Below, piece after piece: positions 12,959 through 39,285 of a stretch of 39,636 bases of DNA. The notes beneath the pieces are model-generated. The model did not search any database. It saw only the letters and a program-made list of their open reading frames with translations, and had not been told where the DNA came from. The stretch's first letter is position 1, and each line of letters opens with the position of its first letter. The position numbers were made by a program, and so were the translations under genes. Source of the DNA: Eubacteriales bacterium (GTDB lineage Bacteria > Bacillota > Clostridia > Oscillospirales > Oscillospiraceae); the NCBI GenBank assembly GCA_030533415.1, contig JAUNJE010000026.1, forward strand, positions 1-39,636, given 5' to 3'.

Positions 12959-13041
12959 ATGGAAGCTGCTGGATGCAGACGCCGCATCTATATGCAGCAG
13001 TTTGCATTTCGCAAAACACAAACTGTAAAGGAGCAAATTCT

Positions 13042-14043: not shown

Positions 14044-14045
14044 CC

Positions 14046-14921
14046 ATGAAGAAAAGCGTAGTTGTGATCGTCGTTCTGGTGCTTGCAGCCCTGCTGGCAC
14101 TGAACGCCACCTTTACGGTCCAGGAAAATGAATATGCCTGTACCGTCCGCTTCTCCAAGATCATCGAGACCACGGACACGGCGGGCCTGCATTTCAAAAT
14201 CCCCTTTGTGGACAGCGTGAAGTATTTCAGCAAGGCCACCCAGCTCTACGACATCCCCCCGTCCGAGGTGCTGACCTCCGACAAGCAGAATATGACCGTG
14301 GACTGCTATATCCTGTGGTCCATCTCCGACCCCAAGCTGTTTTACCAGACCCTTGGCTCCAAAGCCACCGCGGAGCAGCGGCTGGACGCGCTGACCTACA
14401 ACGAGCTGAAAACCGTTATGGGCACCCTGGCCCAGGCCGACATCATCAACATGGAGGACGGTGCAAAGCGCAATGAGATCTATGAAAACATTGCCACCGA
14501 CGTGGATTCCCTGGCAAAGACCTATGGCATCCGGGTGGAGGATGTGAAAATCAAGCAGTTCGACCTGCCGGAAAGCAACCTGAACGCGGTCTATAACCGC
14601 ATGATCTCCGAGCGGAACCAGATGGCGGAAAAATACACCGCTGACGGCAATTATGAGGCGTCCATCATCCGCAACGATGTGGATAAGCAGGTGAACATCA
14701 TCGTCTCCGACGCGGAGGCCGAGGCCGCCAAGCTGGAAGCCGAAGGCGAGCAGGAATACATGCGCCTGCTAGCGGAGGCCTACGACACGGCGGATAAGAA
14801 AGACTTCTACGAATTCACCTTGGCCCTGGATGCTTTGAAAGCAAGCCTGACCGGTGACGAAAAGACCGTCATCCTGGACGGCAATTCCGAATTGGCCCGG
14901 ATTTTGATGGGCGCGGAATAA
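14046..14921 (+). CDS. hflC: SPFH-domain membrane protein HflC
   Basis: HflC is the partner of HflK in the FtsH-associated complex. The 291-residue protein has an N-terminal signal-anchor helix (VVVIVVLVLAALLALNATF). It is followed by FTVQENEYACTVRFSKI, AGLHFKIPFVDSVKYFSK and DKQNMTVDCYILWSISDP, typical HflC blocks. The C-terminal half is rich in Ala/Glu (SDAEAEAAKLEAEGEQEYMRLL) and predicted coiled coil. The start codon lies just after the hflK stop, indicating coupled translation. The unit ends at a strong terminator. Confidence 0.93.
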   Translation: MKKSVVVIVVLVLAALLALNATFTVQENEYACTVRFSKIIETTDTAGLHFKIPFVDSVKYFSKATQLYDIPPSEVLTSDKQNMTVDCYILWSISDPKLFYQTLGSKATAEQRLDALTYNELKTVMGTLAQADIINMEDGAKRNEIYENIATDVDSLAKTYGIRVEDVKIKQFDLPESNLNAVYNRMISERNQMAEKYTADGNYEASIIRNDVDKQVNIIVSDAEAEAAKLEAEGEQEYMRLLAEAYDTADKKDFYEFTLALDALKASLTGDEKTVILDGNSELARILMGAE

Positions 14922-24807: not shown

Positions 24808-25902
24808 ATGATGCAGAATGATTCGACCCGGGCGTTGACGGAGGTCTCTGCCCGCCAGTGGAACTTCGTGACACAGGATAACCTCAGTGCCCGGGAAGCG
24901 GTTGCCTTTCTTCTGGATGGGATGCAGGTGCGAACCTTTCGGAATATCCTCTACCTGGTCTGCGGGAGGGATGATCTGGAAAAAGACCTTGTGGAAGGGC
25001 TGTGCGCCCTGGCCGGAGAGCGTGTCCAGCCAGACAGCATCCGCCGCAAGGTCCGAAACTGGATGAATGGAAAAACCCTCCCGACCGAGCGGGAGGATGT
25101 GTTTCAGATCTGCTTTGCCCTGGAATTAAACCAGGAGCAGGCCAACCGGATGCTGACCCTGCTGACGGAACAGGGCATCCATTACCGAAACGGCCGGGAA
25201 ATGGTGTATGCTTACTGTCTGCGCTATGGCCTTGGGTACGGCAATGCCTGCCGGCTGGCGGAGCAGCTGGTGCACGGAAAATCAGCACCGGATATCCACC
25301 GGGAGCCGCTTACGCAGATGATCCGGCAGGAATTTCAGTCGGTTCAGGCGGAGGAGGATTTGTTTTCCTTTCTTCTGCGGCATCAGGAGCACCTTGGCAG
25401 CTACCATAACACAGCATATGCCTATTTTTGCAAAATGCTGACGCTTTTGACGGGGGAGAACCTGGATGGGGAGGCCTGCTATTCCATGGAGTATGTGGCG
25501 GAAACCTATCTGCGGCTGAACGTGCCCCAGGAGAAAAAGACCGGAGCCTACAGTGATGTTCAGAAAATGGTAAAAAAATACTGGCCCGGTGCCAGAAGCA
25601 TCAAGGCCATGAAAAGCCGCAGCGAGGATGTGAGCCGTAAGACTTTGCTGCTGTTGTATCTCGTTACCGGGGGCGTATGGGACCGGGATTATGACGAGCT
25701 GGACGAAGCTTACATCCAGCCGAAGGAATTTTTGGAGGCCCACTGCAAGCGGATGAACCGGATGCTCATGAACTGCGGAATGTGCCGGATAGATCCGCGA
25801 AATGTCTTTGACTATCTGGTGCTGTATTGCCTGCGGCCGGAGGATGAGCTTTTTATGAGCGACCGCATGGCTGTGCTGGCAGCGGAAATATTCAATACAT
25901 AA
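24808..25902 (+). CDS. Unknown protein with an HTH-like N-terminal region
   Basis: I do not recognise the family. The 364-residue protein looks soluble and largely helical. Residues about 79-118 (RRKVRNWMNGKTLPTEREDV followed by FQICFALELNQEQANRML) resemble the recognition helix and following helices of a lambda-repressor/XRE-type domain. The rest is alternating charged and leucine-rich helices, ending MSDRMAVLAAEIFNT. AAGGAAGG precedes the ATG. It lies between the P1 peptidase and a small XRE repressor, 1 kb before the phospho-signalling cluster. A regulatory role is plausible but not shown. Confidence 0.7.
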   Translation: MMQNDSTRALTEVSARQWNFVTQDNLSAREAVAFLLDGMQVRTFRNILYLVCGRDDLEKDLVEGLCALAGERVQPDSIRRKVRNWMNGKTLPTEREDVFQICFALELNQEQANRMLTLLTEQGIHYRNGREMVYAYCLRYGLGYGNACRLAEQLVHGKSAPDIHREPLTQMIRQEFQSVQAEEDLFSFLLRHQEHLGSYHNTAYAYFCKMLTLLTGENLDGEACYSMEYVAETYLRLNVPQEKKTGAYSDVQKMVKKYWPGARSIKAMKSRSEDVSRKTLLLLYLVTGGVWDRDYDELDEAYIQPKEFLEAHCKRMNRMLMNCGMCRIDPRNVFDYLVLYCLRPEDELFMSDRMAVLAAEIFNT

Positions 25903-26023: not shown

Positions 26024-26350
26024 CTACAGCCTGTGGGCCAGTCCTTTCATATAGGCTATGGCCAGCGCCTGTTCCTCTGACGTGAGAACGTTGAAGAGGG
26101 ACAGGCATTCTTTTTGCTCTGCGGTCAGGATTGTGGCCTCATCCTCCCCGGCGAAAAATTGCTGCAGGGAAATGCCAAGGCCGGCACAAAGCCGTTTTAG
26201 GGTGGGCATGGACGGCTGCGCACCCTTCAGCAGCAGGGTATTGAGCGTGGAATAGGGAATGCCGGACCGTTTTGCAAGCTCATAGTAGGAGTAATTCCGC
26301 TCCCGGCAAAGGTCCTTGATCCGCTGAAGCACATCCATTTCCTCCGACAT
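26024..26350 (-). CDS. Small XRE-family transcriptional regulator
   Basis: The 108-residue protein has a complete helix-turn-helix of the lambda-repressor type (IKDLCRERNYSYYELAKRSG followed by IPYSTLNTLL). The closing LKRLCAGLGISLQQFFAGED, a typical XRE end, is followed by a short helical tail (LTSEEQALAIAYMKGLA). AGGAGG lies 6 nt before the ATG. It faces away from the downstream TPR-like gene and the phospho-signalling cluster, so it could act on that divergent region; this is inference from position. Confidence 0.9.
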   Translation of the reverse strand: MSEEMDVLQRIKDLCRERNYSYYELAKRSGIPYSTLNTLLLKGAQPSMPTLKRLCAGLGISLQQFFAGEDEATILTAEQKECLSLFNVLTSEEQALAIAYMKGLAHRL

Positions 26351-26533: not shown

Positions 26534-26887
26534 ATGGAAAAAGAGAAGATGCAAAAGCTGATTGACAGTGGAAACACGCCGGAGGCAATGATCGCGGTGG
26601 CCCAGGCGTATCTGGATGGTGGGGTCCTCCGGGATCCCGTGGCGGCGGAAGGCTGGCTGATGAAAGCCATTGAGGCCGGGGACCCGGTTCAGTCCCCCAA
26701 GGCCATGGGAATTCTGGCTGTCCGGGTGCTGGGAAAAGACCGGGTACTCAGCGATGCGGATTACCGGGATATCCAACGCTGCGTACAGTCGGCCGAAGGC
26801 GCGGAGCGCCAGGAGCTTCTTGCCCTGCTTACATTGGCGTCAGAGGAGCAAAAAGTTTTTGAAGAAACGGATTTTCGTTGCAAATAA
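26534..26887 (+). CDS. Small Sel1/TPR-like protein
   Basis: The 117-residue product starts at the ATG at 26534 with GGAGG 6 nt upstream. It is made of helix pairs (NTPEAMIAVAQAYLDGGV, DPVAAEGWLMKAIEAGDP, SPKAMGILAVRVLG) that resemble Sel1-like or tetratricopeptide repeats, which mediate protein contacts. No membrane segment or enzyme motif is visible. It lies directly before the phospho-signalling cluster, whose promoter starts inside its last codons, and could be a cytoplasmic partner. That link is inference from position. Confidence 0.7.
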   Translation: MEKEKMQKLIDSGNTPEAMIAVAQAYLDGGVLRDPVAAEGWLMKAIEAGDPVQSPKAMGILAVRVLGKDRVLSDADYRDIQRCVQSAEGAERQELLALLTLASEEQKVFEETDFRCK

Positions 26888-26906
26888 AACGGTATTATGA
26901 TACAAT
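26878..26906 (+). promoter_or_regulatory. Promoter of the FHA/kinase/phosphatase cluster
   Basis: -35 TTGCAA (26878-26883), a 17-bp spacer, and -10 TACAAT (26901-26906). It overlaps the end of the TPR-like gene. The first cluster gene follows with AGGAGG at 26916-26921. Confidence 0.7.
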
Positions 26907-26929: not shown

Positions 26930-28633
26930 ATGAAAAATAAAAATTTTATACGCTTATTTACACTGCTGTTGACGCTGGCCTTTTTTGTTCCCCAGTTTGT
27001 TCAGGGCGCCCAGGCCCTGTCGGGAGACATCCTGCTGCCCGGGCAAAATGACAATTCTCTCGACACAAACCTGTTTGATTCGATGAATTCTGATAGTACC
27101 GTTTCCGATTTGCCGGATGGTTTGAACGGCGGGGAAGCGGACAATTCCGTTTTCTTTATGCTATTTACGGACGGCACATCGGATAACTCGATTCTGATGC
27201 ACGCCTTCTATATGGAGGATACCCAGGGGGATGGCAGCACCTATCTGGTAACGTCTTATCTTACCGCTGTGCTGGTAGACGGCGGATTCACCCCCGTAGT
27301 TGTGGGAGCGGACTATCAGGAGACTGCCTCCTATATAACCACTGTGGGATATTACGCGTTTTTTGAAGCGCCTGGTCTGGAGACGTTTACCCCCTTGAAG
27401 ACCGGGACAGAGTTTACGGACATGGTTTATGTTGCGAAGCAAACTGCCAACAGCGGAGGCGTAACCGGACCTCAGTACGACATAATAGATATGTCCGAAG
27501 CGGAGAATCTTGGTGATTTTTATTATTTCCCCGGAGAGACGATCCGTGATGCCTATGTCGGTGCGCCGGTTTTCGATTCTGAGGAATGCGGGCTGATCGG
27601 TTGTCTGGATCTATATAACAGTGACGGCGAGATGGCCATCACGTCTATCATCGGTCTGGAATTTCCTGCTGCGGCGGCCATTGTAAAGGGCAGCGCCCAG
27701 CCGGCAGGCGGGACAACGCCGGAAACCAATCCCCAGGCAGAACCGGCAGCGCAGCCGCAGACAGAGCCGGAAACCCGGGGGACCCAGGAGCAGGACGATG
27801 ACGGCGGTAAAACGGGAACCGCCACGGTAAGCATCCTGGCTGTAGTGGCAGTCATTGCAGCGGTGGGGTTCGTCATGACCAGAAAGACCTCCGGAAAGAA
27901 GGAAAAGGAAGGAACCGCCGTCGTGGAGCAGGGAACCATTTCGCTGGAACCGCAGCCGGATCCCGGCCCCGTGCCGGCGCCTACGCCCGATTCCACCGCC
28001 AAATTCCAGGTGCGGGGTGTCGGCGGCGTCATGAACGGCAGGGTGTTCCCGCTGAATGACGTCCTGCGCTTTGGCCGTGGCGGGCAATGCAGTGTGCTGT
28101 TTCCCCAGGATGCCCCCGGCGTCAGCAGCCTGCATTGCACGCTGGCCATGGAGAATGGCCGGGCGGTGCTGCGGGACGAAAATTCTTCCTATGGAACATA
28201 TTTAGGCAAAAATGTCAGAATGGAACCGGGAGTCAGCTACAATCTTCAGCCCGGAGATGTGTTTACGCTGGCGGAGGGCGGACAGTCCTTCCGTCTGGAA
28301 AACGCCGGCGCCAATGTCCAGGAGCTTACGCCTGCTGTGCGGGCAGTGAATGGCGGCATGGTCTACCGGGCAGATCTGCAGGGCCGCGTTGCCTTTGGGC
28401 GGGATCCCCGGTGCCAGGTGCCGTTTGACGCCAATGACACTTCCGTCAGCGCCAACCACTGTGTCCTGTACCGGGAGGGAGATGTGCTGTATCTGATGGA
28501 TAACGGCTCCACCAACGGCACGTTCCTGGGAGAGAAGGAACGTCTGCGGCCCAACAAGCCCTACCGGGTGTCCAAGGGCCAGGCATTCTTCCTATGCTCC
28601 CCGCAATATACATTCGTCATCATTGAGGATTGA
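26930..28633 (+). CDS. Membrane protein with protease-like extracytoplasmic domain and two cytoplasmic FHA domains
   Basis: The 567-residue product has a signal peptide (residues 1-30) and an extracytoplasmic domain (about 70-250). A Pro/Glu/Gln-rich stalk, one transmembrane helix (about 299-317) and a basic stop-transfer segment follow. Two FHA domains occupy about 360-456 and 467-565. FHA domains bind phosphothreonine. FHA2 is well conserved (FGRDPRC, SANH, NGSTNGTFLG); FHA1 has FGRGGQC and SSLH but SSYGTYLG instead of TNG. The outer domain resembles a trypsin/HtrA fold: STYLVTSYLTA and GAPVFDSEECGLIGCL (about 211-226) fit the strands around the catalytic serine, but no GxSG serine is present, so it is probably an inactive sensor. 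First gene of the cluster. Confidence 0.8.
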   Translation: MKNKNFIRLFTLLLTLAFFVPQFVQGAQALSGDILLPGQNDNSLDTNLFDSMNSDSTVSDLPDGLNGGEADNSVFFMLFTDGTSDNSILMHAFYMEDTQGDGSTYLVTSYLTAVLVDGGFTPVVVGADYQETASYITTVGYYAFFEAPGLETFTPLKTGTEFTDMVYVAKQTANSGGVTGPQYDIIDMSEAENLGDFYYFPGETIRDAYVGAPVFDSEECGLIGCLDLYNSDGEMAITSIIGLEFPAAAAIVKGSAQPAGGTTPETNPQAEPAAQPQTEPETRGTQEQDDDGGKTGTATVSILAVVAVIAAVGFVMTRKTSGKKEKEGTAVVEQGTISLEPQPDPGPVPAPTPDSTAKFQVRGVGGVMNGRVFPLNDVLRFGRGGQCSVLFPQDAPGVSSLHCTLAMENGRAVLRDENSSYGTYLGKNVRMEPGVSYNLQPGDVFTLAEGGQSFRLENAGANVQELTPAVRAVNGGMVYRADLQGRVAFGRDPRCQVPFDANDTSVSANHCVLYREGDVLYLMDNGSTNGTFLGEKERLRPNKPYRVSKGQAFFLCSPQYTFVIIED

Positions 28634-28647
28634 AAGGAGAATGAATT

Positions 28648-30075
28648 ATGAGCAACCGTACCTTTTTTAAGCAGGTAAAGGAAGGGCAAATGAGCCTCGG
28701 AGATATTTTCTCCGAGGTGGGCAGGAAGCATTCCCCAAAAGAAACGGCAAAGGTTCTGATCTCCGGCACGGAGCTGACCACCCCGTCTGAGGCGGAGATG
28801 CTCTCCGGCTGGCAGAAGCCCTTTCTGTTTGCCCGGTTCTTTGGAGGCTTTTTGGCTGTGATCCTGCTGACCTGTTTGCTTGGCACAGTTTTGGCGTATG
28901 AAGGGGCGTCTTTTCTGCTGATGGTGGAAATTCCGTTTCTGGTGCCTTTGACGCTGCTTCTGCTGGTTTGGGAGATGAATGTTCCCCGGAACATTTCTCT
29001 GTACGAGATTTTGAAGATCGTTGCCGTGGGCGGCATCCTGTCCATTATCGCGGCAATTATCGGCTTTAGAATTGAATCCCCCGAAATGGACGCTTGGGCT
29101 GGATTGATAGAGGAGCCTGCCAAGCTGCTGGTGATCTATATGATCTTAAAGCGCAAAAACTATCCCTATGCCATCAACGGCGTTCTTATCGGCATGGCGG
29201 TGGGTGCCGGCTTTGCGATCATGGAATCCCTTGTCTATACCTTTAGCTTATTTTTCGGTGGCATCATAACGGGTGTAAGCCAGCTTTTGAATGGCGAGTG
29301 GATACAGGACGATATTTTGCGGTATGGCTTTTTCTGCGGGTTAGAGACAGCAATCGCCCGGGCGCTTGTAGCGCTCTCCGGCCATGGCGTCTTTGCGGCC
29401 CTTTATGGCGGGGCGCTGGTCAAGGCCAAGGGCACAGATGAGGTTCAGCTGAGCCACTTGGCAAAGCCGGAGTTCCTTCTGTACTTTGCTGTCTCCATCC
29501 TGCTGCACGCGCTGCACAACTACGGGCTGAATCTGGGCTTGCCCCAGATAAAGATACTTACCTTTCAGGCACAAAATGGAGATACTGTCGCCGGAACCCT
29601 GCGCAGTGAGTACATTATCATTGGTGTCATCGCGGTTATTCTTTTGTTAAATTCCCTGCGCTCCGGCGTCAACCAGGTGGTCACCATCTGCGCCGGGAAG
29701 AACGGAGGCCGGGTGACCCAGGCGGTTTACCGGGGCGAAAGTGGAAATCCTGTCTTTGCCGCAGGCACATTTACGCTGGAGGGAATTGCGGGCCCTTGCG
29801 CGGGACAGGTATTCCAGCTGAAGGCCGGACAAGCCCTGACCATCGGCCGCAGCAGCGGCAACGATATCCCTCTGCCCGGCTGTGCCAACGTCAGCTCAGA
29901 GCATTGCCGGGTATCTGTGGAGAACGGCCGTGTCACCGTTACGGACCTGAAGTCCACCAACGGCACTTATCTGGACAGTCAGCGGCTGCTTCCCCGGGTG
30001 TCCACTTCTGCAGCAAACGGTTCCGTGATCTATCTGGGCAACAAAAGCTGCGCCTTTCGTGTGCGGGCTCAGTAA
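28648..30075 (+). CDS. PrsW-family intramembrane metalloprotease fused to an FHA domain
   Basis: The 475-residue protein has about eight hydrophobic helices and the PrsW/CPBP-like signature: LIEEPAKLLVIYMI (EExxK at 155-159), GMAVGAGFAIMES (Glu 193), SGHGVFAALYGG (His 246) and LLHALHNYG (His 287 and 290). In Bacillus, PrsW cleaves the anti-sigma factor RsiW. After the last helix an FHA domain (about 378-473) shows LTIGRSSGNDIPLP, SSEHCRV and DLKSTNGTYLD, all key phosphothreonine-binding positions intact. The FHA would be cytoplasmic and could recruit phosphorylated partners or substrates to the protease. AAAGGAG precedes the ATG, 14 bp after the previous gene. Confidence 0.88.
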   Translation: MSNRTFFKQVKEGQMSLGDIFSEVGRKHSPKETAKVLISGTELTTPSEAEMLSGWQKPFLFARFFGGFLAVILLTCLLGTVLAYEGASFLLMVEIPFLVPLTLLLLVWEMNVPRNISLYEILKIVAVGGILSIIAAIIGFRIESPEMDAWAGLIEEPAKLLVIYMILKRKNYPYAINGVLIGMAVGAGFAIMESLVYTFSLFFGGIITGVSQLLNGEWIQDDILRYGFFCGLETAIARALVALSGHGVFAALYGGALVKAKGTDEVQLSHLAKPEFLLYFAVSILLHALHNYGLNLGLPQIKILTFQAQNGDTVAGTLRSEYIIIGVIAVILLLNSLRSGVNQVVTICAGKNGGRVTQAVYRGESGNPVFAAGTFTLEGIAGPCAGQVFQLKAGQALTIGRSSGNDIPLPGCANVSSEHCRVSVENGRVTVTDLKSTNGTYLDSQRLLPRVSTSAANGSVIYLGNKSCAFRVRAQ

Positions 30076-30081
30076 CAGGCG

Positions 30082-31272
30082 ATGAGTGCAGTCAATCGTG
30101 CCCTTCGGCCGGGTACTGTGATCCACAGCCGCTACCGGGTGGAGCAGGTGCTGGGAGCGGGCGGCTTTGGCGTCACCTACCGGGTGACGGACCTGCGGGA
30201 AAACCGGACCGCCGCCATGAAGGAGTACATACCCCAGGATATCGCCGTCCGCCGGATCGGCGGCACCGGGGTGGTGCCGCGTCCGGGCTGCGATGCGCCC
30301 TTTGAGCAGTTCCGCGACCGCTTCCTGGAGGAAGCGAGAATTATTTACCGCTACCGGGGCCATCCCAACATCATTCGGGTGCAGCACCTTTTTTATGAAA
30401 ACAATACCGCTTATTATGTGATGGAATTCATTGACGGAATGGATTTTGGCAAATACCTGGAGCGCAGCGGCCAGCGGCTTTCCTGGGAGGATATTCGTCC
30501 GGTCATGGCCCAGGTGGCGGCTGCCCTGCAGGAGGTTCACGGCAGCGGTATGATCCACTGCGACATCAGTCCGGATAATATTTTCCTTCTCAGCGGCGGG
30601 CAGGTAAAGCTTATCGATTTTGGCGCGGCCAAAAGTATGCTTCACGGAAAATCCTCCGTCATGCTGCTCAAGCGGGGCTTTGCACCGCCGGAGCAGCTGT
30701 CGTCCCAGGGGCGGCTTGGCCCCTGGACGGATATCTACGCTATGGCGGTGACCATCTACCGTGCGTTTACCGGGAAAATGCCGCCGACGGCGGAGGAGCG
30801 GCTTACCTCGGATGCAACCATCTGGCCCTCAGAGCTGGGCATTGCGGCGCCGTCCCGGCAATGGGAGCAGGCGCTGCGGAAGGCCATGTCCCTGCGCGTC
30901 GAGGACCGGTATCAGGATGTCGCCGCGTTCTGGGCGGAGCTTGCCGGCACCCAGGCCGTGCCGGAGCTGGAATGTTTCCGGGGAATTTACGCAGGCACCA
31001 AATTTCAGATTCGGGGGGAGACCCTGTTGGGGACCGACAGCAGCCGCTGCAGCATCCTTTTTCCGCCGGGCACGCCGGGAGTCAGCCGGGTGCATATGCG
31101 GGTCTGGGCGGAAGATGCGCAGCTGCGGGTCATGGACATGGGATCCAGCTACGGTACCTGGCTGAACGGCCAGCGGATGATTCCGGGCTTGGCATATGCC
31201 CTTGCCCCCGGTATGCTCCTTGTCCTGGGAGACGGACAGGTTTTCCGCGCGGCTCCGCCGGAATCCAAATGA
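30082..31272 (+). CDS. Ser/Thr protein kinase with C-terminal FHA domain
   Basis: The 396-residue soluble protein contains a Hanks-type kinase domain (about 15-290). The glycine loop is LGAGGFGVTY, the ATP-binding Lys is in AAMKEYIPQD (residue 47), and EEAR supplies the helix-C Glu. The catalytic loop is HCDISPDN (159-166) and LIDFGAAK carries the metal-binding Asp. The usual HRD is HCD, so it is a non-RD kinase with the catalytic Asp kept. The FHA domain (about 298-390) has SRVH and SSYGTWLNG, but the conserved GR is GT (LLGTDSSRC), which may weaken phosphothreonine binding. No membrane helix. It starts 6 bp after the PrsW gene; the binding site is weak, implying coupling. Confidence 0.9.
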   Translation: MSAVNRALRPGTVIHSRYRVEQVLGAGGFGVTYRVTDLRENRTAAMKEYIPQDIAVRRIGGTGVVPRPGCDAPFEQFRDRFLEEARIIYRYRGHPNIIRVQHLFYENNTAYYVMEFIDGMDFGKYLERSGQRLSWEDIRPVMAQVAAALQEVHGSGMIHCDISPDNIFLLSGGQVKLIDFGAAKSMLHGKSSVMLLKRGFAPPEQLSSQGRLGPWTDIYAMAVTIYRAFTGKMPPTAEERLTSDATIWPSELGIAAPSRQWEQALRKAMSLRVEDRYQDVAAFWAELAGTQAVPELECFRGIYAGTKFQIRGETLLGTDSSRCSILFPPGTPGVSRVHMRVWAEDAQLRVMDMGSSYGTWLNGQRMIPGLAYALAPGMLLVLGDGQVFRAAPPESK

Positions 31273-31327
31273 ACCGATGAAGCAATACATATGATATTAT
31301 GGATATAACAAACAGGAGGTAATTTCA

Positions 31328-31960
31328 ATGGAACTTATTAAATGCAAAAACGGCCATAGCTATGATCCTTCCATCACCCCGGAGTGTCCCGAATGCGCAA
31401 GGCTGAGGGGCCATACCCTGCCGCTGGACACGTCTGCCTATCTCCCCAACGATGAGATTGGCAAGACCATGCCCCTTCGCCGGGACACGGTACCCATCAA
31501 TCACCAGACGTCCCATTGGGCAGATACGGACGATTACCGCAGCGCCAGTCTGGCCTCGGATGGCTACGACCCCACCTTGCCCGTTAATTACGACAAGGGT
31601 CCCCTCCACGACAAGGCAGCGCGGCCCGTTACCGGCTGGCTGGTATGTATTGACGGCCCCGAAAAAGGCCGGGACTACCGCCTTCACGAGGAATACAACT
31701 ACATCGGCCGCAGCACGAAGATGGATGTCTGCATTGCCGGGGATCCCACGGTTTCCCGGGAAAATCATGCCATCATCGCCTATGATACCCAGGAGCGGAT
31801 GTTCTTTTTTGCTCCCTCCAGCGGTGCAAGCATCGTCCGCCACAACGGCAAGGCGGTTTTGAGCAATGTGGAGCTGAAATACGGCGACAGGCTGCAGATG
31901 GGGAAGGGAACGTTCCTGTTTGTACCTCTGTGCGGAGAGAGTTTTCAATGGGAGGATTAA
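31328..31960 (+). CDS. Zinc-ribbon FHA-domain protein
   Basis: The 210-residue protein begins MELIKCKNGHSYDPSITPECPEC, a C/H-rich zinc-ribbon-like knuckle. A linker with several Thr-Pro-like sites follows (EIGKTMPLRRDTVPI, GYDPTLPV). A C-terminal FHA domain (about 100-205) has YIGRSTKMDVCI and VSRENHAII; the loop that is usually TNG reads SSGASIVRHNG. In actinobacterial GarA/OdhI, a threonine ahead of the FHA is phosphorylated by a kinase and then folds back on it; the linker threonines here could act likewise (inference). AGGAGG precedes the ATG. Its 3' end overlaps the next gene by 13 bp. Confidence 0.85.
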   Translation: MELIKCKNGHSYDPSITPECPECARLRGHTLPLDTSAYLPNDEIGKTMPLRRDTVPINHQTSHWADTDDYRSASLASDGYDPTLPVNYDKGPLHDKAARPVTGWLVCIDGPEKGRDYRLHEEYNYIGRSTKMDVCIAGDPTVSRENHAIIAYDTQERMFFFAPSSGASIVRHNGKAVLSNVELKYGDRLQMGKGTFLFVPLCGESFQWED

Positions 31961-33072
31961 GCTGCACGAAGCTGTCCGGCAGTGAACTGCTGCTGAACAT
32001 TCCCGGCCTGGGCGGGTTGGAGGATTCGGGACAAACGGAACCTACGGAAACGACATTGCCTGCGGTGGAGGAAACCGAAGCTTGGCAGACGGAAGCGGAG
32101 ACGGTGACAGAGGAAACCCAGGCCGTCACGGAGCCGGATGTGCAGGGGCCTGCTTTTAACAGCGGCTGGCTGTATGCCGCTCTGGCGCTGGTGGTTCTTC
32201 TGCTGGTCTGCCTGGTGGCGGATACTCTGCGGAAGAGCAAAAAGCGCGCAAAGCAGGCTACCCTTAAGCAGGAAACCACGCCCGTCCCTGCCGGCGAAGG
32301 TGTTCCCGCTCCGGAAGCTGTTGCCCCGCTCTGTGTAACGGCTGCGGTTCTGCAGGGCCAGGGGGCCAGGGAGGACCAGCAGGACTGCTATGGCTATTCA
32401 GAGCCGGCCCGCTACGCCCAGCAGGGCGTGCTGGCCGTGGTGGCCGATGGCATGGGGGGACTGGCCAACGGCAGTGTCGTCAGTTCCGCCCTGGTTCGGA
32501 TTTTCCAGGAGGGATTTCAAAGCATGGCCGCTTATGCCCAGCCCGATGAGCTGCTGCTGGAAATGGCCGCGCAGGCCAATGCCCAAATCAACGAGATGCT
32601 CCGGGGAACGCCCCGCAGCGGCTCCACCCTGGTATCCGCAGTGATTCGGGACGGAAAATTGTACTTTCTCACTGTTGGGGATTCCCATATCTATCTTTAC
32701 AGAGGCGGCGCTTTGCTCCAGCTGAACCGGGAGCATATCTATCAGGAAGAGCTGGCGGTGAAGGCCATAAACCGGGAGGTGCCGCTTTCCCGGGTACAGG
32801 GCGACCGTCAGGCCCATTCTCTGACCAGTTATTTCGGAATCGGCAAAATCCCCGGCCTTGACAGAAACGCCAAAGGGATTAAACTAATAACAGGAGACCG
32901 TATTTTGCTGGCCACCGACGGCGTCTTTGGCACTTTGCCGGATCAGCGGCTGGAGCGGGCGCTGGAGCACGATATCGGTGATGCGGCCAAACAAATTGAG
33001 GAGGCGGTCCGGGAAGCGGACCGGCCTTACCAGGACAATTTCACCGGGCTGATTCTGGAATACCGGGAATAA
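31948..33072 (+). CDS. Membrane-anchored PP2C-family protein phosphatase
   Basis: The ATG at 31948 follows GGAGAG and gives 374 residues. An acidic Thr/Glu-rich N-terminal segment (about 1-70), likely outside, is followed by one helix (74-92) and a basic patch (RKSKKRAK) that places the rest inside. The PP2C domain (about 128-372) carries QGAREDQQD, VVADGMGGLANG, SGSTLVSAVI, VGDSHIYLY, LLATDGVFG and QDNFTGLIL, i.e. all metal-binding aspartates. It would dephosphorylate Ser/Thr residues written by the neighbouring kinases. The reading frame begins inside the FHA gene, suggesting tight coupling of their amounts. Confidence 0.92.
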   Translation: MGGLSCTKLSGSELLLNIPGLGGLEDSGQTEPTETTLPAVEETEAWQTEAETVTEETQAVTEPDVQGPAFNSGWLYAALALVVLLLVCLVADTLRKSKKRAKQATLKQETTPVPAGEGVPAPEAVAPLCVTAAVLQGQGAREDQQDCYGYSEPARYAQQGVLAVVADGMGGLANGSVVSSALVRIFQEGFQSMAAYAQPDELLLEMAAQANAQINEMLRGTPRSGSTLVSAVIRDGKLYFLTVGDSHIYLYRGGALLQLNREHIYQEELAVKAINREVPLSRVQGDRQAHSLTSYFGIGKIPGLDRNAKGIKLITGDRILLATDGVFGTLPDQRLERALEHDIGDAAKQIEEAVREADRPYQDNFTGLILEYRE

Positions 33073-33093
33073 GCCCAAGGGGGAGGAATCCAT

Positions 33094-33810
33094 ATGAACA
33101 TCAAAACAGCTTCTTTATCAGATTGCGGCGGCAGAAGCATCAATGACGATACCGTCCGTATCCGCCAGGATGAGGATGGTGTGTGCGTCTTTGTCGGTGA
33201 CGGTCTGGGCGGCTATGCCGGAGGCGGACAGGCCTCCCAGGCCGCAGCGGAAGCGGTGCTGGCGGCCAGCCGCCGGGGAAGCCTGCTGACGGAGGAAAGG
33301 CTGCTTTCCACAGCGGAGCAGGCCGACCAGGCGGTTCGGAAGCTCCAGGCGGAAAGCCGGGGAAATATGAAAACCACGCTGGTAACCCTTGCCATCGAGG
33401 ACGGACGGGCCAGGTGGATGCACGTGGGGGATTCCCGGCTGTACCATTTCCGGGACGGGCGGCTGCAATTCCAGACCATGGACCACAGCGTGTCCCAGAT
33501 GGCGGTGCTCATGGGGGAGATCACCCGGGAGCAGATCCGCTTTCACGAGGACCGCAACAGGGTGCTCCGGGCACTGGGAGGCGAGAACGCTAAGCCGGAG
33601 ATTTCCCCCACGGTCATGCTGACCGGCGGGCAGGATGCCTTTCTTCTGTGCACCGACGGATTTTGGGAATATGTCTACGAGCCGGAGATGGAGCAGGCCC
33701 TCCGCCTGGCGAAGGATCCCGAAGACTGGCTGGAGCGGATGAAAAAACTGCTTCAGACGCGGGTACCGGAGGACAACGATAATTTCACTGCGGCAGCGGT
33801 CTTTTGCTGA
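33094..33810 (+). CDS. Soluble PP2C-family protein phosphatase
   Basis: The 238-residue product is a minimal PP2C (PppA/Stp-like) domain: SDCGGRSINDDTV, FVGDGLGGYAGGGQAS, KTTLVTLAI, MHVGDSRLYHF, LLCTDGFWEY and EDNDNFTAAAVF. The metal-binding aspartates are present. No membrane segment. It differs from the preceding membrane-anchored phosphatase, so the cluster has one cytosolic and one membrane phosphatase. GGGAGG precedes the ATG, 21 bp after the previous stop. Confidence 0.93.
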   Translation: MNIKTASLSDCGGRSINDDTVRIRQDEDGVCVFVGDGLGGYAGGGQASQAAAEAVLAASRRGSLLTEERLLSTAEQADQAVRKLQAESRGNMKTTLVTLAIEDGRARWMHVGDSRLYHFRDGRLQFQTMDHSVSQMAVLMGEITREQIRFHEDRNRVLRALGGENAKPEISPTVMLTGGQDAFLLCTDGFWEYVYEPEMEQALRLAKDPEDWLERMKKLLQTRVPEDNDNFTAAAVFC

Positions 33811-33843
33811 AGCGCGCCGAAAAAGAAAATGAGGTGATACGCA

Positions 33844-36800
33844 ATGGAAAAGAAACGCTGTTATGGCTGCATGAAGCTGAAAGTTTCCAGCCCGGTCTGT
33901 GAGCATTGCGGCTACGACGAAAATACCCGCAACGCGCCCCACCAGCTGCCTGCGGGAACCGTACTCAAGGAACAGTACCTGGTGGGGCGGGTGCTGGGCC
34001 AGGGAGGCTTTGGCATCACCTACCTGGGATGGGACCTGTATCTGGACATTCCCGTGGCGGTGAAGGAATATTACCCCAACGGGGCTGTCATGCGGGAGAC
34101 CTCCGTGACAATGGATGTGGTCAGCTGTGACGGTGAGACCGGGAGCCGTTTCCGCAACAATAAGGAGCGGTTTCTGCGGGAGGCGAAAATGCTGGCCCGT
34201 TTCTCCCAGGTGCCCCAGATCGTGCAGGTAAAAAACTTTTTCCTGGCCAACAATACCGCCTATATCGTCATGGAATATGTGGAGGGCATCACCCTCAAGC
34301 AGTATGTGAAGGAGCATGGCGGCAAGCTCAGCGTGGAGGAGACCTTCACCATTTTGGGGCCTGTGGTAGAGGCCCTGTGCAAAGTCCATAAGGCGGGGCT
34401 GGTCCACCGGGATATCAGCCCGGATAACATCATGATGCTGCCCCAGGGCGGCGCCAAGCTGCTGGATTTCGGCGCGGTGCGGGATGTGGGCGCGGCTTCC
34501 GTGGACAAGGGCCTGACCAAATCCACTGAGGCGATCCTGAAGCAGGGCTATGCGCCCATTGAGCAGTACCAGAAGCGGGGCAGCCTTGGCCCCTGGACGG
34601 ATGTCTATGCGCTCTGCGCCACCATGTATTATTGCATGACGGGCCAGGTGCCGCCGGACGCGCCGGAACGCCTGCTGGGGGATGAGGACCTGAACTGGCG
34701 GGGCCTGATTCCCGAATTGACTCCGGTCCAGAAGGCGGCGCTGGAGCATGGCATGGAGCTGCGCGCGGAGAAGCGGACAAGCTCCATGGAGGTGCTGCAT
34801 GAAGAGCTGTTCCGAAAGGAGAAGCCACCAATCTCATCCCTCTTGGGTGTAAATCCGCCCCTAATCCCATCATGGGAGGAAGGGGAAACCTCCCACGTTA
34901 CCGGGGAAAACTCGGAAAAGGGGGAGGAAATCACCACCCAGGGGGAGAAAATCACGACCCAGGCGGAGGAAACCACCCACGTTACCGGGGAAAAACCGGA
35001 AGAGGGGGAGAAAAAGTCCCGTGCCGGCAAGGGCCGGATGGTTTTGATCGGCGCTCTGGGAGCGGCCGCGGTGCTTCTGCTGTGCCTGATTCTGCTTCTC
35101 GGAGGCAGGGACAAGACAGAAGACAAGGAGGAGTCTCTGCCCCCGGCGGAGACTGCGGGCGCCGCCGCGCGGACGGAGGACGGCAATACCGTTTCCGGAA
35201 ACTGCGGCCAGAATTTGACCTGGGTGCTGGACCGGGATACCGGGGAGCTGACCATTTCCGGCAGCGGGGAAATATACGATTACGACTGCTACGGCTATTA
35301 TAATTCCGGTTTGGCCTACGCGCCCTGGCGCGGTTATCAGGATCAAATCACCTCCGTCACCATAGAAGACGGTGTGACGGTAATCGGCTCCTGCGCGTTT
35401 ATGGGTTGTAAGAACCTGAAGGCCGTGCAGCTTCCCGGCACGTTGGAGGAGATTCGGCTTAGTGCCTTTGACCAGTGCGCGCTGACGGAGCTGGCGCTGC
35501 CCGACGGTTTGCAAACCATCGGTGAAAGCGCGTTCTCCTGGAATCCGCTGAAAACGGTAACCATTCCCGACAGCGTGCGCTATGTGGGCGTGGCAGCGTT
35601 TGACTGCAACCCGCAGCTGGAAAACGTCACCATCGGCCCGGATACCCGGCTGAACTATGATACCTGGTATCCAATCTTCAGCGGAAATGGATTCACCATT
35701 CATGGTTACACCAACTCCATGGCGGAGGATTACGCCCAAATTCTGGGATGCAATTTCGTATCCACCGGTGAGAACCAATGGGACGCCGAGGGCCAGTGCG
35801 GCGACAATCTGTACTGGCATCTGGATTTTGATTCGGGATTCCTGAAAATTGACGGCGAAGGCCAAATGTGGGACTTTAATGGCCCATGGAGGTTGAGCGA
35901 GGACGAGTGGAACGATGACTTGGAGCTGATTCCATGGAGCCAGTACCGGGGCAAAATTTATGTGTTGTCCATTGGCGATGAGGTCACCAGCATTGGGCTA
36001 GATGCCTTCGCGAATTGTGATAATCTGGTGGATGTCTACTTTGGGAATTCCGTAGAGAGCATCCGTAGTGCTTTCTTATCAACTGCCATAGATCAGCTTT
36101 ATCTTCCCGACAACGTGACATACATAGAAAATCATACTATCAACTGGTGCGAAAATCTGACGGAGGTGCGGCTTCCCGAAAACCTGAAATTTCTGGAGGA
36201 AAACGCCATTGCGGAGTGTGGAAATCTGCAAAGGCTGTTCGTGGGGCGGGATACCGTCATCGATGAATCCCATGGACTGCCATTTTCATCGGAAGAGACT
36301 GGGAATTCGACGACTTATCCCAACCTGACCATCTATGGCATGCAAAATTCCGACGCGGAGCGGTTTGCTGCGGAATATGGCTTCTCCTTCAAAATCGGCG
36401 CCTGGCCCGAAAACTGGGGGTCTGGCCTGGCGGCGGAAGCGGAGGGCCAGTGTGGTGACGATGTCTGGTGGCTGCTGAGCAATGGTGTACTGGTGGTCTA
36501 CGGCACCGGAGAGATGTGGGATTTCAACGGCACCTGGCAGCTGCGGGAGGAGAATAAGGACTCCTGGATCGATAACCGGGAGCTGCCCCCTTGGTCAAGC
36601 TATCAGGACCAGATCGGGACACTGTTATTCATGGGCGACGTTACCTACATCGGAGAGAACGCGTTTTCCGGCTGCAGGCTCAGCGACAATGTTGATCTGG
36701 GCAGCTCGGTTCGCACCATCGGGGCGAATGCCTTCCTCGAATCGGGAATCCAGCATATTGTTATCCCCGAGCAGGTGACATCGATTGACCATAACGCTTT

Positions 36801-37083
36801 CAACTATTGCGAAAGCCTGACCAGCGTGTGGCTGCCGGATAATCTGGACAGGCTGCAGGCCACTGTGTTCAACCAGTGCCGCAATCTCCAAAAGCTGTAT
36901 GTGGGCGGCAAAACAATTCTGGAAAGAGACGGCAAATTGACGCCCTTTACGCAGCTTGGCGCAACACTGGACGATGAAACCGTAATGCCCTACAATCTGA
37001 CCATCTATGGCTACGAAAATTCCGATGCCGAGCGGTTTGCCAAGGAGTATGACATCCCTTTTGTTCTAGCGCCAGCGGAATGA
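33844..37083 (+). CDS. Receptor-like Ser/Thr kinase with zinc ribbon, transmembrane helix and leucine-rich-repeat ectodomain
   Basis: In order the 1079 residues comprise a zinc ribbon (Cys 6, 9, 19, 22) and a kinase domain (about 43-325: LGQGGFGITY, VAVKEYYP with Lys 74, REAKML, HRDISPDN at 188-195, LLDFGAVRD). A repetitive Glu/Thr linker (345-392), a transmembrane helix (399-420) and an extracytoplasmic region follow. The ectodomain has three units (about 452-640, 648-850, 866-1075). Each starts with CGxxxxW and a small beta block ending in YDY or WDF, then BspA-type leucine-rich repeats (SIGxxAFxxCxxL, LPxxLxxI) and ends with a GYxNSDAERFA-like module. The reading frame ends just before a fourth unit that continues in another frame. 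AGGTGA precedes the ATG. Confidence 0.9.
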   Translation: MEKKRCYGCMKLKVSSPVCEHCGYDENTRNAPHQLPAGTVLKEQYLVGRVLGQGGFGITYLGWDLYLDIPVAVKEYYPNGAVMRETSVTMDVVSCDGETGSRFRNNKERFLREAKMLARFSQVPQIVQVKNFFLANNTAYIVMEYVEGITLKQYVKEHGGKLSVEETFTILGPVVEALCKVHKAGLVHRDISPDNIMMLPQGGAKLLDFGAVRDVGAASVDKGLTKSTEAILKQGYAPIEQYQKRGSLGPWTDVYALCATMYYCMTGQVPPDAPERLLGDEDLNWRGLIPELTPVQKAALEHGMELRAEKRTSSMEVLHEELFRKEKPPISSLLGVNPPLIPSWEEGETSHVTGENSEKGEEITTQGEKITTQAEETTHVTGEKPEEGEKKSRAGKGRMVLIGALGAAAVLLLCLILLLGGRDKTEDKEESLPPAETAGAAARTEDGNTVSGNCGQNLTWVLDRDTGELTISGSGEIYDYDCYGYYNSGLAYAPWRGYQDQITSVTIEDGVTVIGSCAFMGCKNLKAVQLPGTLEEIRLSAFDQCALTELALPDGLQTIGESAFSWNPLKTVTIPDSVRYVGVAAFDCNPQLENVTIGPDTRLNYDTWYPIFSGNGFTIHGYTNSMAEDYAQILGCNFVSTGENQWDAEGQCGDNLYWHLDFDSGFLKIDGEGQMWDFNGPWRLSEDEWNDDLELIPWSQYRGKIYVLSIGDEVTSIGLDAFANCDNLVDVYFGNSVESIRSAFLSTAIDQLYLPDNVTYIENHTINWCENLTEVRLPENLKFLEENAIAECGNLQRLFVGRDTVIDESHGLPFSSEETGNSTTYPNLTIYGMQNSDAERFAAEYGFSFKIGAWPENWGSGLAAEAEGQCGDDVWWLLSNGVLVVYGTGEMWDFNGTWQLREENKDSWIDNRELPPWSSYQDQIGTLLFMGDVTYIGENAFSGCRLSDNVDLGSSVRTIGANAFLESGIQHIVIPEQVTSIDHNAFNYCESLTSVWLPDNLDRLQATVFNQCRNLQKLYVGGKTILERDGKLTPFTQLGATLDDETVMPYNLTIYGYENSDAERFAKEYDIPFVLAPAE
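34885..34994 (+). repeat. Imperfect direct repeats encoding the kinase juxtamembrane linker
   Basis: A 26-bp unit at 34885-34910 recurs at 34969-34994 with one mismatch, both encoding a HVTGE-containing stretch. Between them an ATCACxACCCAGG unit is also duplicated. The encoded segment, rich in Glu and Thr, lies between the kinase domain and the membrane helix. Confidence 0.75.
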
Positions 37084-37694
37084 CCGCTGAAGCAGAAGGC
37101 CAATGCGGGGACAGCGTTTGGTGGTTCCTCAGCGGCGATACGCTGGTGCTTTACGGAAGCGGAGAGACATGGTGCTTTGGCTTGAAACAATCGGATATCC
37201 AGTCCTGGGCGAAGGAGGACTACGAAAACGGACGGGCTTTCACCACATATCCGGAGTACTATGAATACAGAGAAGCGATCCGCCGTTTCGTGGTGCTTCC
37301 CGGTGTGGATTTCCTGCGGGATGGACTGGCTATTGGGCTGTATTGGCTGGAGGAGGTGGAATTCGGAACGGTTTCCAGCTGCTGGCTGAATTTCAGAAAC
37401 ATCAAAACTCTGAAGGAGGTTGTTTTCCCCGAGAGTATGGCGTCCATCGGCAGTTATATGTTCATCGAAGGGGGCATAGAGAAAATTACGATTCTCAACG
37501 CCAGTGCGGAAATCGGAGAATATTTCTGCTATGAATGCAGCAGCCTGCGGGAAATTTGGTTTGGCGGAAACGAAAAAATCGAACAGCCACTATTTTGGGG
37601 AATGAACTTGAGCGAAGTTACCTTCTACGTCAAGCCCGGCTCCGATGCGGAGAGGTTCGCGGAACAAAAAGGAATTTCTTATGAATACTACTAA
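37080..37694 (+). CDS. Detached fourth ectodomain unit of the receptor-like kinase (probable frameshift product)
   Basis: This 204-residue frame starts at an ATG overlapping the kinase stop (ATGA). It begins TAEAEGQCGDSVWWFLSGDT, the same module that opens kinase units 2 and 3 (AEGQCGDNLYW; AAEAEGQCGDDVWW), and continues with leucine-rich-repeat-like text (FPESMASIGSYMFIEGG) to SDAERFAEQKGISYEYY. It has no signal peptide or membrane helix, so as a separate protein it would be stranded in the cytoplasm. Translating this frame upstream of the ATG gives SASGMTAEAEGQ, matching GSGLAAEAEGQ before unit 3. The homology therefore begins before the ATG. I read it as the 3' part of the kinase gene displaced by one base. 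Confidence 0.75.
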   Translation: MTAEAEGQCGDSVWWFLSGDTLVLYGSGETWCFGLKQSDIQSWAKEDYENGRAFTTYPEYYEYREAIRRFVVLPGVDFLRDGLAIGLYWLEEVEFGTVSSCWLNFRNIKTLKEVVFPESMASIGSYMFIEGGIEKITILNASAEIGEYFCYECSSLREIWFGGNEKIEQPLFWGMNLSEVTFYVKPGSDAERFAEQKGISYEYY

Positions 37695-37707
37695 TTGAGG
37701 TGAGCAT

Positions 37708-38745
37708 ATGGGAGAAGCACAATTTTGGCTCAGTGACGGCACGGTTGTGGGCGGCCGGTACCGGCTGGAAAAGGTGCTGGGGATCGGCGGCTACGGCATC
37801 ACTTACCGGGGCCTGGATATGCGCCTGGAACGGCTGGTGGCAGTGAAGGAATACTACCCCTCCTTCTGGGCCAGCCGGTTCACGGAATACGGCTGCGGCG
37901 TCCGGGTGCTGCAGGGCATGGAGGAGGCGTTCCGGAAGGGAATGGACCGCTTCCTGGATGAGGCCAAGACCCTTGTACAGCTGTCCAATATTTCCGGTGT
38001 GGTTCGGGTCAGTGACTTTTTTCAGGAAAACGGCACGGCCTATCTGGTGATGGACTATCTGGACGGCAAAAACCTGAAGCAAATGGCCGACGGCTTTGGC
38101 GGCCGGATTCCCGCGGATGTGCTGATCCCGGTGCTGGCCCCGGTGATCTCGGCACTGCGGCAGGTGCATGAGCTGGGGATGATCCACCGGGATATCAGCC
38201 CTGACAACATTATGATGCTGTCCGACGGCTCCGTGCGGCTCATCGATTTCGGCAATGCCAGAGATACCACCGACGACCGCTCCATGACCCTGGCCATGAA
38301 GCAGGGCTTTGCCGCCCCGGAGCAGTACCGCAGCCGGGGACAGGGGACCTATACGGATGTCTATGGTATCTGCGCCACCATGTATTACTGCCTGACGGGC
38401 AAGCTGCCACCCCAAGCCATGGACCGGCTTACCGGAACGCCCTTCCCCACACCGTCGGAGCTGGGGGTCAGCATCACGGAGCAGTGGGAAAAGACGATTA
38501 TGGATGGTTTGGAGTTGTATGTGAATAAGCGCATTCAGACCATGGAGGAGCTTTGGCAGCGGCTGTATGTGGTGACACAGCCGGAACCGATTCCCTACAC
38601 CGGGGTGGAGGATTATACCCCCACCACACAGATCGAACCGAAGCCCCACTTCCCGGACCTTCCGTGGGAAAAGGCCGTTTCCACGGGACTGCAGCGGATC
38701 CGCGGCATCTGCGCGCAAATCTATCAAAAAATGAAAGAGCTGTGA
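37708..38745 (+). CDS. Ser/Thr protein kinase
   Basis: The 345-residue soluble protein is a complete Hanks-type kinase: LGIGGYGITY (24-33), LVAVKEYYPS with Lys 47, LDEAKTL (Glu 85), HRDISPDN (160-167), LIDFGNARD (178-186) and APEQY in the activation segment. It is closest within the window to the receptor-like kinase but has no zinc ribbon or membrane helix. A C-terminal tail of about 60 residues contains DYTPTTQIEP, a possible phosphothreonine site for the neighbouring FHA domains (inference). AGGTGAGC precedes the ATG, 13 bp after the detached ectodomain frame. Confidence 0.94.
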   Translation: MGEAQFWLSDGTVVGGRYRLEKVLGIGGYGITYRGLDMRLERLVAVKEYYPSFWASRFTEYGCGVRVLQGMEEAFRKGMDRFLDEAKTLVQLSNISGVVRVSDFFQENGTAYLVMDYLDGKNLKQMADGFGGRIPADVLIPVLAPVISALRQVHELGMIHRDISPDNIMMLSDGSVRLIDFGNARDTTDDRSMTLAMKQGFAAPEQYRSRGQGTYTDVYGICATMYYCLTGKLPPQAMDRLTGTPFPTPSELGVSITEQWEKTIMDGLELYVNKRIQTMEELWQRLYVVTQPEPIPYTGVEDYTPTTQIEPKPHFPDLPWEKAVSTGLQRIRGICAQIYQKMKEL

Positions 38746-38749
38746 CGCC

Positions 38750-39217
38750 ATGGAAAAGCCGGATGAATTTGACCGCTGCATCTATTGCTTCGCCCCCAAG
38801 GATACCCCGGGGCCTTGTCCGGCCTGCGGCTATGACAACGGACTTTGCGATCCGCCGGGATGGTGGCTGTCACCGGGAACAGTCCTAAAGGGCCGCTATA
38901 TCGTGGGCCGCCACTTGAGCAGCACGTCTGCGGAGCTTACCTATCTGGGATGGGATCTGCGGCGGAATTGCCTTACAGAGGTGGTGGAATATTTCCCGGA
39001 GGATTATGTAAAGCGGGATATTACCAATTCCGACGATGTCAGCTGTATTCCCGGCTGCGCCCAAGCTCTGGAAACCGGACGCCAGGCCTTCTTTGAAAAG
39101 GCAAAGCTGTTCTATAACTGTGTCAGCCGGATAGAAGCGCTGAAAATGGACTTTTTTGTCAGGAACAATACCTGCTATTATGTCCGTGAGAAAAAGCCCA
39201 AAAACGCGATGCCGTAA
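38750..39217 (+). CDS. Zinc-ribbon plus degenerate kinase N-lobe (truncated pseudokinase)
   Basis: The 155-residue product aligns along its whole length with the start of the receptor-like kinase. It has a zinc ribbon (CIYC at 10-13, CPAC at 23-26), SPGTVLKGRYIVGR (against AGTVLKEQYLVGR) and TYLGWDL, then FFVRNNTCYYV (against FFLANNTAYIV), and stops at the hinge. The glycine loop is lost (SSTSAE instead of GQGGFG) and the ATP-binding Lys is Val (EVVEYFPE against AVKEYYPN). No C-lobe, HRD or DFG follows. It cannot be an active kinase: it is a decaying duplicate or a small decoy. It begins 4 bp after the previous stop with no clear binding site. Confidence 0.8.
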   Translation: MEKPDEFDRCIYCFAPKDTPGPCPACGYDNGLCDPPGWWLSPGTVLKGRYIVGRHLSSTSAELTYLGWDLRRNCLTEVVEYFPEDYVKRDITNSDDVSCIPGCAQALETGRQAFFEKAKLFYNCVSRIEALKMDFFVRNNTCYYVREKKPKNAMP

Positions 39218-39238: not shown

Positions 39239-39285
39239 ACACCCCTGCCTGCACTGCACAGTGCCGGCAGGGGGGTATTTTCTGG
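39239..39285 (+). terminator. Terminator ending the FHA/kinase/phosphatase cluster
   Basis: ACCCCTGCC and GGCAGGGGGGT form the outer stem and CACTG/CAGTG the inner stem, followed by ATTTTC. It lies about 20 bp after the last stop codon. Confidence 0.8.

Follow-up and report, generated by a model that had tools for sequence, protein, structure and literature searches.

A conserved kinase, PP2C and FHA gene cassette with a PrsW-FHA fusion in an Oscillospiraceae genome

The DNA analysed here (the window) is a 39,636-nucleotide stretch, positions 1–39636 of contig JAUNJE010000026.1 of an Eubacteriales bacterium of the family Oscillospiraceae, whose genome assembly comprises 2.72 Mb in 80 contigs and is 88% complete. 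Between positions 26930 and 39217 it carries an island of ten open reading frames (ORFs), P0001 to P0010, all on the + strand and separated by intergenic gaps of −31 to 55 bp, which encode Ser/Thr kinases, PP2C phosphatases, FHA-domain proteins and a PrsW intramembrane protease fused to an FHA domain (Table 1). The linkage of these genes is conserved in other genomes, and it is therefore nearly certain that they constitute a dedicated system.

A Pfam scan of the ten proteins found three Pkinase domains, two PP2C_2 domains, one PrsW-protease domain and LRR_5 leucine-rich repeats (LRRs) in two proteins, as well as five FHA domains distributed over four proteins, one of which carries two. Together with the ORFs and a motif audit, this confirms the content that an earlier note, made from the sequence alone, had ascribed to the island: ten co-directional genes with three kinases, two PP2Cs, five FHA domains, a PrsW protease and an LRR receptor kinase. 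None of the ten proteins reached the cut-off of an NCBIfam model. Zinc ribbons were assigned by manual reading of CxxC pairs and transmembrane (TM) segments by a simple hydropathy scan.

Conservation of the cassette

The zinc ribbon-FHA adaptor P0004 (zFHA) was the anchor of these searches, and since loci were picked by zFHA only, the co-occurrence of other cassette genes was not built into the result. At the level of the order, zFHA matches were found in 22 of 197 genomes, the window's own genome counted. Eighteen regions were taken from 17 of these 22 genomes, with locus L045 added and three weak matches left out; a kinase and a PP2C gene lie near zFHA in all 18 and likewise in L045.

Among named genomes, at least 595 zFHA stretches matched; 524 of them held up on confirmation, and the best 80 were analysed, with counts restricted to the same-strand run around zFHA. 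A kinase and a PP2C gene share this run in 66 of the best 80 loci, and the 14 loci without the pair include short contigs. The 80 loci contain a TM-PP2C in 72 cases, a kinase in 68, a second PP2C in 66, a kinase-FHA fusion in 18, a trypsin-TM-FHA protein in 31, a vWA-TM-FHA protein in 30 and PrsW-FHA in 23; for the 48 loci with at least 18 kb of sequence, the respective numbers are 48, 46, 45, 14, 19, 24 and 16. As several loci form near-identical pairs (e.g. L095/L096), these do not amount to 80 independent events.

A draw across the phylum contributed 15 strong zFHA loci new to the analysis, in which neighbours were considered within eight called genes. PP2C was present in all 15, a kinase in ten and a trypsin in five; without L220 and L221, which look like L146 and L172 of the 80, PP2C remains in 13 of 13 and a kinase in eight of 13. 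Eight loci (L222, L223, L224, L225, L227, L228, L229 and L231) have a shorter zFHA variant with two TM-PP2Cs, the second of about 580–700 amino acids; a small TM or TM-FHA protein is usual in them, and they lack trypsin-TM-FHA and PrsW.

Loci chosen for contrast look different. PrsW genes without FHA were near kinase, PP2C or FHA genes in none of four cases. Eight other contrast loci gave a kinase-type match in four (two of them very weak), an R364-type match only in two (R364 is described below) and nothing in two, and PP2C occurred among these eight only at a kinase-PP2C pair of the window's own genome. Searches anchored on PrsW found three PrsW-FHA proteins outside this genome; two are in cassettes (L045 and L047), and the third, in L022, is outside any cassette on a contig of 6.4 kb.

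The earlier note had proposed that a gene order conserved among relatives would support a dedicated system, and the kinase and PP2C run in 66 of 80 loci, with PP2C in 15 of 15 phylum loci, bears this out. PrsW-FHA, also part of the proposed order, lies in the run in the 23 loci counted above; the other 57 of the 80 show none.

Distribution, transfer and selection

Strong zFHA matches (E <1e-30) occur in 15 of 61 genomes of the same genus and in 17 of 398 genomes drawn across the phylum, own genome included in both, and this patchiness marks the system as accessory. Among the organisms named in the titles of carrier records are Bacillus, Heliobacterium chlorum, Butyrivibrio, Thiocapsa imhoffii and Thiohalocapsa marina as well as Acidobacteria and Synergistetes; titles of metagenome-assembled genomes may err, and several carriers are named strains.

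A tree of the 84 of 105 loci that have all three of its genes places the window and loci L093–L096 in one clade (support 0.996), apart from the five same-genus cassettes included (L023, L024, L025, L030 and L035), a grouping that suggests transfer of the cassette between lineages. L093 and the L095/L096 pair keep the order P0001-like protein, PrsW-FHA, kinase-FHA, zFHA, both PP2Cs, kinase-LRR, P0009 and dead kinase N-lobe, with the P0009 kinase of L093 split over two ORFs. The P0001-like protein of L095/L096 has one FHA domain and an ectodomain unmatched by the P0001 query, and a separate counterpart of P0008 is absent from this pair. L094 keeps the first seven genes; P0009 and P0010 are not in the available stretch.

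Comparison of ten genes between L095 and L096, a single pair so closely related that each gene shows few changes, gave omega values of 0.07 for R364, 0.34 for the P0001-like protein, 0.13 for PrsW, 0.10 for the dead N-lobe and 0 for zFHA (seven substitutions in each of the last two), and 0.07–0.27 for the other five. Values below one in all ten fit a gene set that is maintained by selection.

On other contigs, the window's genome encodes a 698-aa kinase with one TM segment next to a PP2C-like gene, which together are probably its housekeeping pair, and a multi-TM protein with an FHA domain (L210:10538-12166) whose translation resembles a SEDS (FtsW/RodA-type) fusion. A housekeeping role is therefore unlikely for the cassette.

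Catalytic and binding motifs

In the motif audit, the kinases P0003, P0007 and P0009 have intact Lys (VAIK), Glu, HRD (HCD) and DFG motifs, and the PP2Cs P0005 and P0006 have the metal-binding Asp motifs. With FHA domains encoded in one cluster with them, these proteins show the sequence features of a Hanks-type Ser/Thr kinase-PP2C-FHA signalling module. P0002 displays the PrsW motifs EExxK (EEPAK), ME and HxxHN and matches Pfam PrsW with 63.6 bits; on the NCBIfam PrsW equivalog model it scores 38.1 bits and does not reach the cut-off of 225. The FHA domain of P0003 carries Gly-Thr in place of the conserved Gly-Arg, which makes its binding of phosphothreonine doubtful.

Two members are odd. 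The start of P0008 overlaps the stop of P0007 (ATGA) out of frame, and as a single kinase protein of L093 matches both, P0008 is possibly no independent gene; the arrangement may reflect either a natural split or an assembly error. P0010 was rejected as a kinase, for it has no Gly loop, VAIK Lys, HRD motif or Pfam match, and the dead state is conserved in three further loci (L093, L095 and L096). The notion that P0010 is a decaying gene was likewise rejected because of the low omega of the L095/L096 N-lobe, a value that is weak alone.

The ectodomain of P0001, which adjoins its single TM segment, is predicted by fold search to adopt the chymotrypsin/trypsin fold, and in the window, L093 and L094 an alignment reading finds other residues at the positions that hold the catalytic His and Ser motifs in active relatives. 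We therefore regard this ectodomain as a predicted trypsin-fold pseudoprotease; its profile-profile match to active trypsins is weak (probability 3.7%, E 0.012). No PDZ match was found by Pfam in the island proteins. In many relatives, a motif-intact trypsin-TM-FHA protein takes the place of P0001. Among the 80 loci, three have both PrsW-FHA and a motif-intact trypsin-FHA, 20 only PrsW, 26 only trypsin and 31 neither (Fisher p 0.009), but this apparent exclusion carries no conclusion, since related loci were counted as independent and 'intact' was defined by a motif test. Membrane FHA proteins of the non-trypsin kind in other cassettes (51 in total) have a vWA domain in 30 of the 43 scanned.

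The C-terminal parts of cassette kinases vary. Among 87 scanned (complete, at least 120 aa), 13 match LRR_5, eight TPR_19, seven C-type lectin, six DUF5050 and three PASTA, as would be expected of receptors that recognise different ligands, although some of these parts may lie inside the cell.

A candidate output protein

The earlier note had seen no obvious effector, sigma/anti-sigma pair or secretion gene in the window. The latter part stands, as no sigma/anti-sigma or secretion gene is present among the window ORFs scanned, but the former is qualified by R364, a recurrent neighbour of the cassette. This protein is 59% identical to a cassette-adjacent protein of L093, and its homologues stand beside 15 of the best 80 named-genome cassettes; of the 24 homologues listed, 21 lie no more than 300 bp from a core gene, and R364 of the window is 1,028 bp away. 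Away from cassettes, four of five strong matches lie beside a kinase or PP2C gene. In three stretches (L191:7149-12138, L193:6516-10829 and L194:1540-6105), R364 homologues adjoin STAND proteins of the kinase-NACHT or kinase-NB-ARC type; no zFHA gene was seen in these stretches.

R364 has no Pfam match, and Foldseek, VIA-align and a profile search against PDB sequences returned no convincing relative of its AlphaFold2 model (pLDDT 80.5) or sequence. Thr169, which follows a low-confidence linker, is Thr in 21 of 22 aligned proteins and Ser in one, and 19 of the 21 proteins with Thr have I, L, M or V at +3. R364 is the best output candidate and may be a helix-turn-helix (HTH) regulator of XRE-like type.

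Operon boundaries and flanking genes

Upstream of P0001, the sequence TTGCAA-17-TACAAT at 26878 matches the promoter consensus at nine of 12 positions. Its position is plausible for a promoter owing to the TG that precedes the −10 element and the AGGAGG before the ATG at 26930. The earlier note's description of it as the single strong promoter is not established: the scan found 18 such sites against 8.1 (sd 2.9) expected from shuffling, and a better one (10/12) lies within the island at 32858. At the other end, the strong hairpin at 39242–39273 with GGUAUUUUCU behind it is probably the end of the operon.

Two small genes of uncertain membership separate R364 from the island; the start of the Sel1-repeat protein at 26535 was chosen by its ribosome-binding site, the longest ORF running from 26429. 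Further upstream, outside the island, two neighbouring SPFH/Band_7 membrane proteins are encoded at 12904–14921.

Table 1 Features of the island and its surroundings, in window coordinates
Feature	Position	Strand	Basis or remark
R364, 364-aa all-helical protein, possible XRE-like HTH motif at about residues 75–115	24808..25902	+	unannotated; candidate output
Small Cro/C1-type HTH protein between R364 and cassette, membership uncertain	26024..26350	-	Pfam HTH_26/HTH_3
Small Sel1-repeat protein, membership uncertain	26535..26887	+	Pfam Sel1 below cut-off
Candidate promoter TTGCAA-17-TACAAT, TG before −10	26878..26906	+	9/12 match
P0001, signal peptide, ectodomain of predicted degenerate trypsin fold (pseudoprotease), single TM, two FHA	26930..28633	+	
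P0002, PrsW intramembrane protease-FHA fusion	28648..30075	+	Pfam PrsW 2.3e-17, FHA 2.1e-16; motifs
P0003, soluble Ser/Thr kinase (HCD, non-RD)-FHA fusion, FHA without conserved Arg	30082..31272	+	Pfam, motifs
P0004, zinc ribbon-FHA adaptor (zFHA), search anchor	31328..31960	+	Pfam
P0005, PP2C phosphatase, single-pass membrane	31930..33072	+	Pfam, hydropathy, motifs
P0006, PP2C phosphatase, soluble	33094..33810	+	Pfam, motifs
P0007, zinc ribbon kinase, TM at about residue 400, LRR_5 (BspA-type) ectodomain	33844..37083	+	Pfam, hydropathy, motifs
P0008, extra copy of P0007 ectodomain repeat (LRR_5), ATGA-coupled	37080..37694	+	Pfam
P0009, Ser/Thr kinase, soluble	37708..38745	+	Pfam, motifs
P0010, zinc ribbon and dead kinase N-lobe ending at the hinge, stand-alone	38750..39217	+	
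Terminator-like hairpin, then GGUAUUUUCU	39242..39273	+	z -4.0

Proposed mechanism and alternatives

Considering these findings together, we propose that the cassette is an accessory transmembrane Ser/Thr phospho-relay with FHA-recruited membrane proteolysis, a scheme to which, as a whole and with its signal flow inferred, we give even odds. A surface ligand, acting via the LRR outer domain, would make the P0007 kinase more or less active. Threonines on the membrane proteins of the cassette and on R364, where Thr169 is the best candidate site, would be phosphorylated by the cassette kinases. The zFHA protein, together with P0001 and P0002 through their FHA domains, would bind the phosphothreonine marks and thereby gather a complex, in which the FHA-recruited P0002 would cut a single-pass partner, making the switch irreversible; P0001 is the leading candidate for its substrate or, alternatively, its inhibitor. 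The PP2Cs would reset the uncut pool, and R364, phosphorylated or bound by an FHA domain, would change gene expression. The output may differ between lineages, as the cassettes of some relatives touch Tad-like, FtsK/SpoIIIE-FHA or ABC-FHA genes.

A first alternative, which we consider unlikely, is that the cassette regulates a secretion or pilus machine (type VII secretion system (T7SS), Tad or type VI secretion system (T6SS)) encoded at another locus. In genome G067, a Tad/Flp-like locus with DUF5702, a prepilin peptidase and DUF6382-FHA directly precedes a PP2C-zFHA-kinase cassette (L087:2-7367); the cassette of L130 has an FtsK/SpoIIIE-FHA protein as a neighbour, and that of L127 an FHA-ABC transporter; and the T6SS uses a kinase-PP2C-Fha pathway of threonine phosphorylation (PMC5995506). 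Against this stand the absence of secretion genes from the scanned ORFs of the window and the content of its 88%-complete genome, in which the T2SSE (T2SS/Tad) ATPase has two weak matches, none above cut-off, and FtsK/SpoIIIE one match, so that T7SS or Tad is disfavoured as the output here. Of the gene families that recur next to the cassette in the 80 loci, R364 alone has been identified by function, so these neighbours do not decide the question.

Somewhat less probable still is a defence or conflict system similar to the kinase-STAND proteins, with the kinases as infection sensors that set off a response and R364 as a shared adaptor. The patchy distribution of the cassette and the R364 homologues that adjoin, or are one ORF from, kinase-NACHT/kinase-NB-ARC proteins in genomes G676, G433 and G573 speak for it, but the outer sensor domains suit ligands outside the cell, and Pfam showed neither a nuclease nor a pore family among the cassette proteins. 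PADLOC, in a scan without P0008, gave only generic kinase-domain matches and a weak PP2C resemblance, with no match for P0001, P0002, P0004, P0010 or R364, and thus does not support membership in a known defence system.

A cell-envelope stress monitor, in which the pseudoprotease and LRRs read the state of the wall or of misfolded proteins while PrsW acts on an unlinked anti-sigma factor, recalls DegS/RseP and PrsW/RsiW in having a trypsin-fold ectodomain and PrsW in one operon, but is just as improbable as a defence role in view of the low equivalog score of P0002, the lack of a PDZ match, the lost His and Ser of P0001, and the absence of sigma/anti-sigma genes among the window ORFs scanned.

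If the proposed relay is correct, bacteria would have a receptor-kinase pathway in which proteolysis acts as the switch, with R364 offering both a tangible output and a candidate phosphosite. It would also unite, in one system of which cultured carriers exist, many gut bacterial genes for FHA proteins, PP2Cs and kinase ectodomains. More tentatively, and with the odds against it, the cassettes may belong to a widespread class of transmembrane signalling in which phosphothreonine recruits FHA-tagged membrane proteases (outer trypsin or PrsW) and pseudoproteases, one branch leading to a phospho-switched R364 shared with kinase-STAND proteins.

Comparison with known systems

Several components have been described separately. 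The relevant passage of Zhang et al. 2012 (PMC3482391) reports PrsW-FHA fusions like P0002 and proposes a signalling peptidase role for them; it names no cassette of kinase, PP2C, zFHA and pseudoprotease. In the parts consulted, a 2005 survey of bacterial kinases (PMC1262709) contains FHA-kinase fusions, one kinase with LRRs and the clustering of M. tuberculosis FHA genes with kinases and phosphatases, and a 2020 survey of conflict systems (PMC7159879) deals with trypsin, kinase and FHA domains as components of systems other than this one. The accessible text of a 2025 PP2C survey (PMC12088040) mentions FHA once, in a figure legend, and the terms 'gene cluster' and 'trypsin' are absent from it. 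Among the papers that our open-access searches listed, we found no description of the cassette, of its trypsin-TM-FHA member or of R364.

P0001 resembles DegS/HtrA-type proteases in its predicted trypsin fold beside one TM segment, but differs from them in the loss of the catalytic residues, the cytoplasmic FHA domains and the absence of a PDZ match. The TerY-P triad consists of vWA, PP2C and kinase; Pfam finds no vWA among the ten window proteins, though it is present in other cassettes. Mycobacteria possess a cluster of FHA, kinase, phosphatase and RodA genes, which likewise brings FHA proteins, kinases and PP2C together, but here the SEDS-like FHA protein and another kinase-PP2C pair are on other contigs. 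The T6SS PpkA/PppA/Fha pathway shares with the cassette a Ser/Thr kinase, a PP2C and an FHA reader that are encoded together. No T6SS genes are present among the window ORFs scanned, the TagH model gives 51.2 bits on an island FHA protein and does not reach its cut-off of 120.25, and, unlike the T6SS pathway, the cassette has several kinases, several FHA membrane proteins, PrsW and a predicted pseudoprotease. Sets of kinase, phosphatase and FHA genes are already known; here a single cassette recurs in records titled Bacillota, Pseudomonadota, Acidobacteria and Synergistetes, and many of its copies couple the reading of phospho-marks with a membrane protease.

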